NCBI GenBank assembly: GCA_027310465.1
Contig: DAIDAU010000502.1
Coordinates: 1 to 35,146 of the forward strand
DNA length: 35,146 nt
DNA from: Rhodocyclaceae bacterium
GTDB lineage: Bacteria > Pseudomonadota > Gammaproteobacteria > Burkholderiales > Rhodocyclaceae
Reading direction: 5' to 3'
In this document: positions 170-4,238 of the stretch, piece by piece
How the letters are laid out: each line of letters starts with the position of its first letter
Numbering within the stretch: position 1 is the first letter of the stretch
Position numbers and translations under genes: made by a program
Notes under the pieces: generated by a model
Told to the model about the DNA's origin: nothing
What the model saw: the letters and a program-made list of their open reading frames with translations, nothing else
The model's database searches: none

Positions 170-1876
170 ATGTCGGCGTCGAGAGTGACGATCCTAGCGC
201 GGCTCGTTCATGGAGTCGCGGGTGCGCTGGTGGCGGCCGCGGGCATTGCCGGCGTCTATCTCGCGGGGGCGACGCCGAACTGGGGCATCGCCGCCTTCTA
301 TCTCGCCGTCGGCCTCGCCGTCGCCGTCGTTCCCGCGATGGTTGCGGCCCGCTCGCTGGCCGTTCCGCTGGAGCGCCTGCGCGACACCATCGCTTCGACG
401 CGCAGCGACGGCGACTTGTCGCGGCGCGCCGAGGTGCCGTCGGGCGGCGGCATCGCCGCGACGGCGCAAGCCTACAACGAGCTGATCGTCAGCTTCCAGG
501 GCATCGCCACGCGCATCGTGTTCACCGCCCAGCAGGTGGCCGAGGCGGCCGACAAGCTGATCGTCGAAGCCAAGAAGACGGTCGACAGCTCGGAGCACCA
601 GAACGCCGCCGCCGAGAGCGCGGCCGAGGCGGTGGCCGAGCTTTCCGGCGGCATCGCGGCAGTCGCGGAAAACGCCGACGGCACGGCGCATATCGCGCAG
701 TCGGCGCGCGAGCAGTCGACGCGCGGCGCGCAGATCGTCGGCGCCGCCTCCGCCGAGATCGAGCGTATCGCCCAATCGGTCGAGGAATCCGCCAAGGTGA
801 TCGCCGCCCTGGCCCAGCGCTCGGAGGCGATCTCGGGCATCGTCAAGACGATCCACGAGATCGCCGACCAGACCAACCTGCTGGCGCTCAATGCCGCGAT
901 CGAGGCGGCGCGCGCCGGCGAGCAGGGCCGCGGCTTCGCCGTCGTCGCCGACGAGGTGCGCAAGCTCGCCGAACGCACCACGGCGGCGACCGCCGAGATC
1001 GGCACGATGATCGCGGCGATCCAGGGCGAGACCCAGAGCGCGATCGCCTCGATCCGCGAGGGATCGAGCCAGGCGCACCACGGCGCCGAACTGGCGCGAC
1101 AGGCGGCCGAGGCGCTGACCGAGATCAACCGGGGCGCGCAGGAAACCATGGAAAAGGTGGACGCCATCGCCCGCTCCATGGCCGAGCAGAGCGAGAAGGC
1201 GAGCGCCATCGCGGAACACGTCACGAGCATCATGGGGTTGGCCGAGCGCAACAGCGAGGGTGCGCGCGGCACGCTGGCCGAGGCCAACCAGCTCGACTAC
1301 CTGGCGACCAATCTCGAGGAGATCGGCACCGTCTTCAAGCTCGGGCAGGCCGGCGAGGAGGCGCGCAAGATCCACCAGGCGATGCCGCAGATGGTGCAGG
1401 AGGCCGCGCGCCAGGTGTCGCAAGCCCTGGAGGCCGCGGTGGACGGCGGCACCATCAAGCTCGACGACCTGTTCGACCGCAACTACGAGCCGATTCCCAA
1501 CACCAAGCCGCCCAAGTTCCACACGCGCTACGACGCGCTGTGCGACCGCCTGCTGCCGCCGATCCAGGAGTCGATCCTCGGCCGCCACGCCGAGATGACC
1601 TATTCCATCGCCTGCGACAGCGGCGGCTACGTCCCCACGCACAACAACCGCTTCGCCCAGCCGCTGACCGGCGACGAGAAGAAGGACTTCGTCGGCAACC
1701 GCACCAAGCGCATCTTCGCCGATCCGGTCGGCAAGCGCTGCGGCGCGCACGAGATCCCGTTCCTGCTGCAGACCTACCGGCGCGACACCGGCGAGATCAT
1801 GCACGACATTTCGGCGCCGGTTTACGTGAAGGGGCGCCACTGGGGCGGGTTCAGGATCGGTTATCGCACGGAGTAG
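170..1876 (+). CDS. Methyl-accepting chemotaxis-like transducer: two N-terminal TM segments, HAMP-like region, MCP signalling domain, C-terminal soluble domain
   Basis: Hallmark MCP hairpin-tip sequence [50 protein letters not shown]; hydrophobic N-terminus; extra ~130 aa C-terminal domain after the signalling region. Confidence 0.93.
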
Positions 1877-1893
1877 CGTTTGGACTGGCGGTG

Positions 1894-2164
1894 CGGCGCT
1901 CGTGCCGACGGGGTGGTCCGCTGCGCTCCATGTCCCCCGGCGGACAAAGACGATAAGGCGTCCGCCTCCTCCTTTACTTACGCGCAGCGGACCACCCCAT
2001 CAGCCCGAGCGCGGAACCGTCGTCGCAGTTGCGAGCAGAACGGCAGGGCGTCGAGCCAAGGGTGGCGGGTAGTCGTCGACGCGTAGGTAAAGGAGGAGGC
2101 GGACGCCTTATCGTCTTTGTCCGCCGGGGGACACGAAGCGACGACGACTACCCGTCGCCCTTGG
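1894..2164. repeat. Composite inverted-repeat element: two oppositely oriented stem-loop units sharing a 55-bp core
   Basis: Core A 1927-1981 is the reverse complement of core B (about 2083-2137) with 3 mismatches. Arms of unit A (1910-1926 / 1982-1998) are a perfect 17-bp inverted repeat. Arms of unit B (2067-2082 / 2138-2153) pair at 15/16. Imperfect pairing extends outward in both. Confidence 0.9.
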
Positions 2165-2271
2165 CGGTTAAAACCACGACCAGCAGCGCCGGCGAGCAAA
2201 AGTGCCCCAATCAAGTTGTCGTACCATAGAACGCTCCTAAAACGGAAGAAGATCTGGCGAAAGGTTCGGAT

Positions 2272-3258
2272 ATGTCCGATTTGCTGAAGAACATTGACGC
2301 GCGCACCCGCCTGGCGGGTACGAACAAGCTGGAAATCCTCTTGTTCTCGCTCGGCGTGGACAATCGCACCGGGCGCCGCGAGACTTTCGGCATCAACGTC
2401 TTCAAGGTGCGCGAGGTGATGCGCACGCCGCCGATTACCGCGGCGCCCGACATGCCGTCGTCGGTCAAAGGCATGGTCAGCCTGCGCGGGGTGCTGGTGC
2501 CGGTGGTCGATCTGGCCGAGTACGTGGGCATGCAGCCCGACAGCCCGCGCGACATCATGATCGTCACCGAATACAACGGCCACACGCAGGGCTTCCTGGT
2601 CGAGGCCGTCGATACCATCCTGCGGCTCGACTGGGCGCAGATGCGCGTGCCGCCCGAAATGCTGACCGCCAATCTCGGCGGCCTGGTCACCGCGGTCACC
2701 GAGCTGGCCGATGCCCGGCTGGTGATGATGCTCGACGTCGAGCGCGTGCTGGCCGAAACCGCCAAGCAGGACGACGAGTACAAGTTCACCGCGATCGAGC
2801 CGCTCAACCGCAGCGACCTGACCATCCTCTACGCGGACGATTCGTCCGTCGCGCGCAACCAGATCGAGCGCACGCTCGACGTGCTGGGCATCAAGGGCAT
2901 CGCGACGATCAACGGCCGCATGGCGTGGGAGGAGTTGCAGAAGATCGCGAACTTCGCCGACTCGACCGGCCGCAAGGTCAAGGACATGGTGCAGCTCGTC
3001 CTCACCGACGTCGAGATGCCGGAAATGGACGGCTACATTCTGACCAAGAACATCAAGTCCGATCCCAGGATGATCGGCATCCCGGTCATCATGCATTCGT
3101 CGCTGTCGTCGATGTCGAACATGGCGCTCGGCAAGTCGGTCGGCGTCGACGAATACGTACCCAAATTCGAGCCCCAGCGCCTGGCAGAAACCTTGACGCG
3201 CCTGCTGCTGAGAGGCGAAAGCGAGAACGCCGCTGAACAGCAAGGAGCCGCTTCATGA
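2272..3258 (+). CDS. cheV: Chemotaxis protein CheV (CheW-like domain + receiver domain), copy 1
   Basis: CheW-like N-half (ILLFSLG…ETFGINVFKVREV…GMVSLRGVLVPVVDL) and REC domain (ILYADDSSVARNQIE…VLTDVEMPEMDGYILTKNIKSD…PVIMHSSLSS…VPKFE). Confidence 0.95.
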   Translation: MSDLLKNIDARTRLAGTNKLEILLFSLGVDNRTGRRETFGINVFKVREVMRTPPITAAPDMPSSVKGMVSLRGVLVPVVDLAEYVGMQPDSPRDIMIVTEYNGHTQGFLVEAVDTILRLDWAQMRVPPEMLTANLGGLVTAVTELADARLVMMLDVERVLAETAKQDDEYKFTAIEPLNRSDLTILYADDSSVARNQIERTLDVLGIKGIATINGRMAWEELQKIANFADSTGRKVKDMVQLVLTDVEMPEMDGYILTKNIKSDPRMIGIPVIMHSSLSSMSNMALGKSVGVDEYVPKFEPQRLAETLTRLLLRGESENAAEQQGAAS

Positions 3259-4238
3259 ACGCCCCCCGCTCGCAGTCGCTCTACTCCGCCGGTTCGACCA
3301 ATCCTGCGCCGCTGCTCGAGACCGTCGATGCGCGCACCAAGCTCGCCGGCTCCAACCGCATGGAGATCCTGCTGTTCTCGCTCGGCACGCACGAGACCTT
3401 CGGCATCAACGTCTTCAAGGTGCGCGAAGTCAGCAAGACGCCGGCGATCACCAAGGCGCCCAACATGCCGGCCGGCGTGGAGGGCCTGATCAGCCTGCGC
3501 GGCAACGTCATTCCCTGCGTCTCGCTGTCCAAGGTCATGGGCCTGTCCGACGCGCCCGGCGAGCTGGGCAGCTCGATGATGGTGACGGAATACAGCAAGC
3601 GCACGCTGGGCTTCCTGGTGCACGGCGTCGACCGCATCATCCGCGTCGAATGGGACCGCGTGCGCGCGCCGGAATCGGTGACCAGCGGCTCGCACGCCTA
3701 CATCACGGCGATCACCGAGCTGCCCGACGGCAAGCTGGTGTCGATCGTCGACGTCGAGCAGATCATGGCGAACACCTTCGGCGAGGCCATCATCCCGCAG
3801 ATCGAGCGTGCCGAAGCCGCGGAGGACCACAACGTGTTCTTCGTCGACGACTCGTCGGTGGCGCGCAAGAAGATCGCCGAGGTGCTCGACAAGCTGGGCG
3901 TCAAGCACAAGCACGCGCTGAACGGGCTGGAGGCGTGGACGCGCCTTTCCGGCATGGCGGCCCACAGCCAGCAATCGAAGCGCGACCTGCGCGACGAAGT
4001 CAGCCTGATCATGGTCGACGCCGAGATGCCCGAGATGGACGGCTACGTGCTGACCAAGAACATCAAGTCGGACCAGCGCTTCGACGGCATCCCGGTGGTG
4101 ATGCACTCTTCGCTGTCGTCGGAAGCGAACCGCTCGATGGGCAAGGCCGTCGGCGTCGATGCCTACGTCGCCAAGTTCGACGCCGAGGCGCTGGCCGAGA
4201 CGCTGCGGCCGCTGCTGGCGCGATCCCACAGAGAATGA
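3255..4238 (+). CDS. cheV: Chemotaxis protein CheV, copy 2
   Basis: Same CheW+REC architecture as the preceding gene; ATGA overlap with its stop codon. Confidence 0.95.
   Translation: MNAPRSQSLYSAGSTNPAPLLETVDARTKLAGSNRMEILLFSLGTHETFGINVFKVREVSKTPAITKAPNMPAGVEGLISLRGNVIPCVSLSKVMGLSDAPGELGSSMMVTEYSKRTLGFLVHGVDRIIRVEWDRVRAPESVTSGSHAYITAITELPDGKLVSIVDVEQIMANTFGEAIIPQIERAEAAEDHNVFFVDDSSVARKKIAEVLDKLGVKHKHALNGLEAWTRLSGMAAHSQQSKRDLRDEVSLIMVDAEMPEMDGYVLTKNIKSDQRFDGIPVVMHSSLSSEANRSMGKAVGVDAYVAKFDAEALAETLRPLLARSHRE

Follow-up and report, generated by a model that had tools for sequence, protein, structure and literature searches.

The gap between a methyl-accepting chemotaxis protein (MCP) gene and cheV in the genome of a Rhodocyclaceae bacterium raises the question of whether the inverted repeats that it contains form a structured element and, if so, of what kind. 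A sequence-only reading of the window (the whole 35,146-nt stretch of contig DAIDAU010000502.1 that was analyzed) had taken them for a REP/BIME-like or non-autonomous mobile palindrome, a view that is supported by the large number of dispersed copies, their arrangement in inverted pairs, the existence of empty orthologous sites, and massive covariation.

Anatomy of the element in the MCP–cheV gap

The coordinates and domain matches agree with the proposal that two oppositely oriented units lie between the two genes; unit A is located on the minus strand and unit B on the plus strand. The interval assigned to them (1894–2164) was nearly right: the arm of unit A begins at 1896 and that of unit B finishes at 2165, and the stretch that empty sites lack spans approximately 1880–2185. 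The features are as follows.

170..1876, plus strand: left neighbor, methyl-accepting chemotaxis protein (PF00015, E 1e-40)
~1880..2185, no strand: stretch absent from the orthologous MCP–cheV interval of G002, G003, and G004 (ends approximate)
1896..2012, minus strand (motif strand minus): unit A, read from the sequence; inverted repeat; covariance-model match C394:1901-2007 (-)
1982-2012 / 1896-1926, minus strand: P1 arms of unit A (sequence and inverted repeat)
1967-1981 (GTAAGTAAAGGAGGA) / 1927-1938 (GGGGGACATGGA), minus strand: internal-loop strands of unit A
1939-1966, minus strand: P2 hairpin of unit A
2013..2054, no strand: linker between the outward-pointing units
2055..2165, plus strand: unit B (sequence, inverted repeat, BLAST matches in the host genome)
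2055-2082 / 2138-2165, plus strand: P1 arms of unit B
2083-2097 (GTAGGTAAAGGAGGA) / 2126-2137 (GGGGGACACGAA), plus strand: internal-loop strands of unit B
2098-2125, plus strand: P2 hairpin of unit B
2272..3258, plus strand: right neighbor, CheV-like protein with CheW and receiver domain (PF01584, PF00072)

Each unit is a two-helix hairpin that consists of a long outer stem (P1), a purine-rich internal loop of fixed sequence (5' GNARGTAAAGGAGGA / 3' GGGGGACAYGNA), and an inner stem (P2). On the motif strand, the layout reads P1 arm, GNAR GT AAAGGAGGA, P2 (with G-C as its first pair), GGGGG AC A YGNA, and P1 arm. The 55-nt cores of the two units differ at three positions, exactly as had been claimed, and the enclosing inverted repeat and the inner hairpin described for each core are indeed present: the arms pair in both units, and each core contains P2. 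The core pattern is found at only two places in the window, which are the two units, and in none of 100 shuffles. RNA folding yielded z-scores of -8.4 (unit B) and -7.9 (unit A), and none of 200 shuffles was equally stable. A promoter search at the element returned no match, and a terminator search only three weak terminator-like matches, two of which are located within P2 hairpins. The element is directly followed by a tandem of two CheV-like genes with CheW and receiver domains (2272-4238).

Copy number and distribution

A core that occurs only once in the genome had been named as an outcome that would refute the proposal. The host genome (G000), however, contains 76 exact cores when searched with a shorter core pattern (reversed control, 0) and 68 matches to the strict core pattern. 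BLAST of unit B against the draft genome gave 74 matches, including A units, lone arms, and matches of palindromic nature; in this search, about 40 matches other than unit B itself, with 84–95% identity and in most cases spanning the full length from arm to arm, lie at unrelated sites. The copy counts vary with the pattern used, and the host assembly is 89.5% complete.

A partial core pattern matched at least 112 stretches in a collection of named genomes. The matches listed are mainly from Rhodocyclaceae/Rhodocyclales (Sulfuritalea, Ca. Nitricoxidireducens) but also include other Burkholderiales (Roseateles, Rubrivivax, Ideonella, Ramlibacter, Aquabacterium) and Xanthomonadales (Lysobacter, Luteimonas, Pseudoxanthomonas). 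Cultured carriers include Roseateles depolymerans DSM 11813 and Pseudoxanthomonas suwonensis DSM 17175. Among 400 genomes drawn evenly from the order, 14 are carriers, belonging to 5 of 158 genera. In genus g45, the majority of the species sampled have the element. The distribution of the family is patchy, yet persistent where the family is present. A covariance-model search of 291 genomes of the class, in which only 13 candidates per genome were scored, was not used for counts. Plasmid and phage collections contained no match to the window version of the element. Units on a contig of Nostoc sp. CMAA1605 (contig188; L091) closely resemble those of Roseateles, and contamination is possible.

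A search of the window against Rfam gave no matches at the gathering score; those obtained with a relaxed threshold were mainly palindrome-like matches to miRNA families and far below the gathering scores. No prior description of the element was found in open-access papers, where occurrences of the core strings are noise. This kind of element is apparently undescribed, a statement that rests on Rfam and the open-access literature only.

Outward-pointing pairs and singletons

The multi-unit groups at 100 foreign loci comprise 51 with the orientation '-+', one each with '-+++' and '++', and none with '+-'. All 26 distinct pairs in G000 are '-+' (outward), and 25 of them join an A-type with a B-type arm. 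Exceptions to the outward-pair rule are found in L122 (6741-7707) and L153 (5651-5904), where units of the same orientation have nearly identical arms. With the inner arms fixed, the linker measures 57 in the window copy, 54–64 in all but two of the pairs in G000, and mostly 45–56 nt in other genomes. The linkers of pairs in L079, L110, L134, and L132 indicate that in some lineages the linker itself forms a strong hairpin (e.g., GGTATTCGAC..GTCGAATACC); such a hairpin was rejected as a general feature, being strong in some lineages but not in all.

Among the 17 B-type singletons with sufficient flanking sequence, about 11 tested positive for the linker and 14 for a stump of the A arm. Because most B singletons retain such traces, the original unit appears to have been the pair. 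By the same flanking sequences, most type-B singletons look like decayed pairs that have kept stumps of the lost partner.

Covariation and the folded strand

Arms that fail to covary would likewise have refuted the proposal, but covariation is strong in both alignments. In alignment A1, which comprises 18 diverse units aligned without structural guidance, 33 of 35 pairs changed on both sides and 91.7% of the cells are paired; the covariation score is 0.795, as opposed to 0.09–0.19 with slid partners, and was not reached in any of 500 shuffles. The score of 148 model-aligned units is 0.836 versus 0.09–0.15 when slid, in an alignment that leans toward structure. Covariation and the fixed loop bear out the earlier interpretation of a conserved loop on covarying stems as a structured element.

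The P1 stems of 187 distinct units contain 314 G-T wobbles versus 19 A-C mismatches, in a count for which the stem ends were picked with G-T treated as paired. The bias is present also at the innermost 16 positions of P1, whose register is set by the loop (~89 versus ~9), and in the model alignment (199 versus 25). The motif strand matters, because a palindrome in double-stranded DNA or repair by template switching predicts equal numbers of G-T and A-C. As far as can be judged from these counts, the motif strand is the one that acts, folded and single-stranded; the asymmetry does not separate RNA from ssDNA.

It is very improbable that the palindromes are merely a mutational by-product, with arms that match through template-switch correction and without selection on the fold. 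Correction of palindromes by template switching is known in general, and within a pair, both units often have similar inner stems. However, such correction predicts no strand preference, whereas GT exceeds AC about 10-fold, and the non-palindromic strands of the loop are both conserved and covarying.

The internal loop

The R preceding GT and the Y following ACA covary and, with few exceptions among the units, form A-T or G-C. Moreover, AAAGGAGGA/GGGGG alternates with AAAGGGGGA/GGAGG, AAAGAAGGA/GGGTG, and AAAGGGGAA/TGAGG, so that the covariation in the loop is of the types R-Y, A.G/G.A, and G.G/A-U. The inferred, putative order of oppositions is G.A, N-N', A.G, R-Y, a bulged A, G-C, and U-A, followed by five purine-purine or A-U oppositions. 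Parts of the core are fixed by construction in units that were found by pattern, but the core is the same in units that were not chosen in this way, namely those found by BLAST in G000 and partner units found with the covariance model. As though it were paired, the AAAGGAGG stretch changes together with the strand facing it (e.g., AAAGGGGGA/GGAGG and AAAGAAGGA/GGGTG); a ribosome-related role of this stretch is speculation. The anatomy of the units, with free stems, a fixed loop, strand asymmetry, and a fixed pair geometry, suggests that something reads the folded loop.

Movement and persistence at orthologous sites

The orthologous MCP–cheV site in G002, G003, and G004 comprises ~100 bp between the genes and no unit. 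Since the site is empty in three congeners, the window copy must have moved in. When 54 elements of G000 were mapped to 1.2 Mb of G003, 12 could be placed: seven at sites without units, where the flanks abut within ~0–130 bp, three that represent two shared pairs, and two in rearranged regions. The comparison of filled and empty sites provided no evident target-site duplication of the kind expected of a DDE-transposon MITE, and the flanks are too diverged to define the ends of the element.

At the acyl-CoA dehydrogenase locus, a pair persists across several genomes of the Sulfuritalea group. In G644, a pair is located between a carboxyltransferase gene and the biotin-carboxylase gene of propionyl-CoA carboxylase, and the layout in G615 matches. 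In the orthologous-site comparison, the first unit shows 31 double changes that preserve a pair versus 10 single changes that break one; in the second unit, where the picture is less clear, 49 double changes preserve a pair, as opposed to 53 changes in which a pair was lost or gained, partly at ragged stem ends. Empty sites together with compensatory persistence indicate that the family is mobile and, at the same time, maintained as a structure. The pair between carboxyltransferase and biotin carboxylase is present in L232 (7633-11609) and L233 (8156-12050), which are apparently orthologous and represent two genera. The whole genome of G644 contains one exact core only.

Long persistence with compensation at orthologous sites could equally be due to host selection for a regulatory RNA. 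REPs are said to protect or process mRNA in operons, and the main rival explanation holds that the units are cis-acting RNAs kept by host selection, i.e., hairpins in 3'-flanking or intra-operon position that protect or process mRNA, with the loop as a binding site for a protein or a processing site for RNase. The wobble asymmetry of the motif strand fits RNA, the pairs are intergenic (between 15 convergent, 21 co-directional, and 7 divergent gene pairs, called with a simple codon model that makes some antisense errors), and pairs with compensatory changes persist at the carboxylase locus of G644 and G615 and at the Sulfuritalea-like locus. Nevertheless, a cis-acting RNA is considered unlikely: where the flanking genes are co-directional, solo units occur in either orientation without preference (6 sense, 5 antisense), each pair places one of its units antisense to any transcript, and the polymorphic presence at orthologous sites implies that those sites do not require the element.

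A proposed REPIN-like element without a detected resident RAYT

REPINs and BIMEs are inverted doublets of REP sequences that are associated with a RAYT (Bertels and Rainey 2011, PMC3116915). The units resemble them in their intergenic location, high copy number, and arrangement in inverted doublets with a length-constrained spacer but also in the presence of singlets as remnants, compensatory changes in the hairpins, and spread within the genome (PMC3116915). The expectation of extragenic, multi-copy sequences in inverted doublets is met. By contrast, each unit is a two-helix hairpin of ~100 nt that encloses a conserved internal loop rather than a short tagged palindrome, and the two units of a pair have different arms. 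A palindrome of 20–40 bp with a GTAG-like end tag is not present; the nearest tetranucleotide in the units, which lies inside P1, varies (GTAA, GCAA, GGAA, GTAG).

The sequence-only reading had also suggested looking for a RAYT/IS200-type transposase, a check that came out negative in four of the five genomes of the genus. The Y1 domain (PF01797) was not detected in G000, G001 (which belongs to the same genus as the host), G002, and G003, whose completeness is 89.5%, 99%, 59%, and 99%. Neither these genomes nor the Y1 genes of other carriers provide the RAYT/Y1 gene flanked by the repeat that is expected of REPs, and no units lie beside the Y1 genes examined. The data do not support assigning the units to the REP/RAYT family, as their anatomy differs and Y1 is undetected in four of the five genomes of the genus. 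For lack of association, Y1/RAYT was rejected as a resident partner in the host genus.

On balance, we lean toward a REPIN-like, non-autonomous element whose pairs are dispersed in trans by an unidentified factor that recognizes the motif strand in its folded form. The site would represent one copy of a bipartite interspersed family of ~260–290 bp, composed of two non-identical, outward-pointing hairpin units and a linker of ~50 nt; the family would spread as pairs, most singletons being pairs that have decayed. Each unit may act as a folded single strand, either RNA or ssDNA, in which P1 and P2 serve as structural scaffolds whose sequence is free to change and the fixed purine-rich internal loop is the inferred recognition site of a trans-acting factor. 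An enzyme provided in trans would copy the family into intergenic sites, mostly beside the 3' ends of genes. Anatomy, copy number, covariation, asymmetry of the motif strand, pair rule, empty sites, and persistence at orthologous sites are observed; an enzyme in trans that reads the loop and the spread by copying into new sites are inferred. The best reading is an element that works like a REPIN/BIME but has not been shown to be one.

It is conceivable, albeit only as a tentative proposal, that the family represents a new class of structured nucleic acid, mobile or regulatory, that is bipartite and independent of Y1. Its only fixed sequence would then be an asymmetric purine-rich loop with covarying non-canonical pairs, and a conserved factor of Beta- and Gammaproteobacteria, as yet unidentified, would recognize the element in folded form, as RNA or ssDNA. 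The family has a covariation record that is unusually clean for a bacterial repeat, and it suggests that a REPIN-like way of life may exist without a resident RAYT. It also poses the concrete question of which factor reads the internal loop and provides an RNA/DNA motif that is unmatched in the current Rfam library and whose non-canonical pairs were inferred from covariation.

Candidate partners and other known systems

The terminal inverted repeats (TIRs) of TIRYTs flank a Y1 gene and are in some families self-complementary and arranged in close pairs (Di Nocera et al. 2013, PMC3733652); a GGGGWSAS motif has been reported for these repeats (PMC3733652, PMC6006769). The units share the close pairs, the self-complementarity, and a GGGGACA-like string in the core, which has GGGGACAT in most units and GGGGACAC in a minority. 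Unlike TIRs, they flank none of the Y1 genes examined, and they carry AAAGGAGGA and P2, which are absent from the TIRs seen in the examined loci. TIRYT TIRs were rejected as the identity of the units, in the absence of any association at these loci.

An unusual REP/TIR family that is moved by a Y1 HUH transposase (RAYT or TIRYT), lost or unassembled in some hosts, would account for the REPIN-like architecture, for the occurrence of Y1 genes in each of the eight carriers from other genera that were tested, and for the similarity of GGGGACA in the core to GGGGWSAS of TIRYTs (PMC3733652, PMC6006769), which is a weak link. This explanation is nonetheless improbable: besides the missing Y1 in G000–G003, no units were found near the Y1 loci examined in carriers, most of which bear their own GGGGTCAG/GGGGACAG repeats of the GGGGWSAS type, and none at 30 TIRYT-like loci in the family of G072 on the Xanthomonadales side, where a single weak model match is a plain palindrome without core. 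In L356, L370, L371, L373, and L387, TIRYT-type Y1 genes lie between inverted repeats of the GGGGACAGACCACG or GGGGTCAG type; L387 contains several such repeats, some of which form long hairpins.

Reverse transcriptase was rejected as a universal partner, since PF00078 was not found in G570, G615, G048, G384, G427, and G072; the presence in every carrier that mobilization by a group II intron or retron would demand is not met. IS110 was also rejected, as it is missing in several carriers. No transposase recurs among the genes beside the units, and the most widely shared neighbor is a metabolic locus with the element at the same place in related genomes. The REPIN-like reading has against it that no partner gene was found, that several carriers lack Y1, several lack reverse transcriptase, and several lack IS110, and that there is no clear target-site duplication.

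NEMIS, ERIC, and other RNA-processed, MITE-like repeats are dispersed palindromes of 100–300 bp that are co-transcribed with their neighbors and have a conserved stem sequence. The units are dispersed palindromic elements of the same size class, but their stem sequence is free, with only pairing and loop kept, and no terminal repeats with target duplication were seen. Integron attC sites are recognized as folded single strands and have variable stems, as do the units. By contrast, the units have no conserved heptamers at the ends of the arms (in alignments A1 and A2, P1 is variable over its whole length) and form no cassette arrays; their conserved block is the internal loop.
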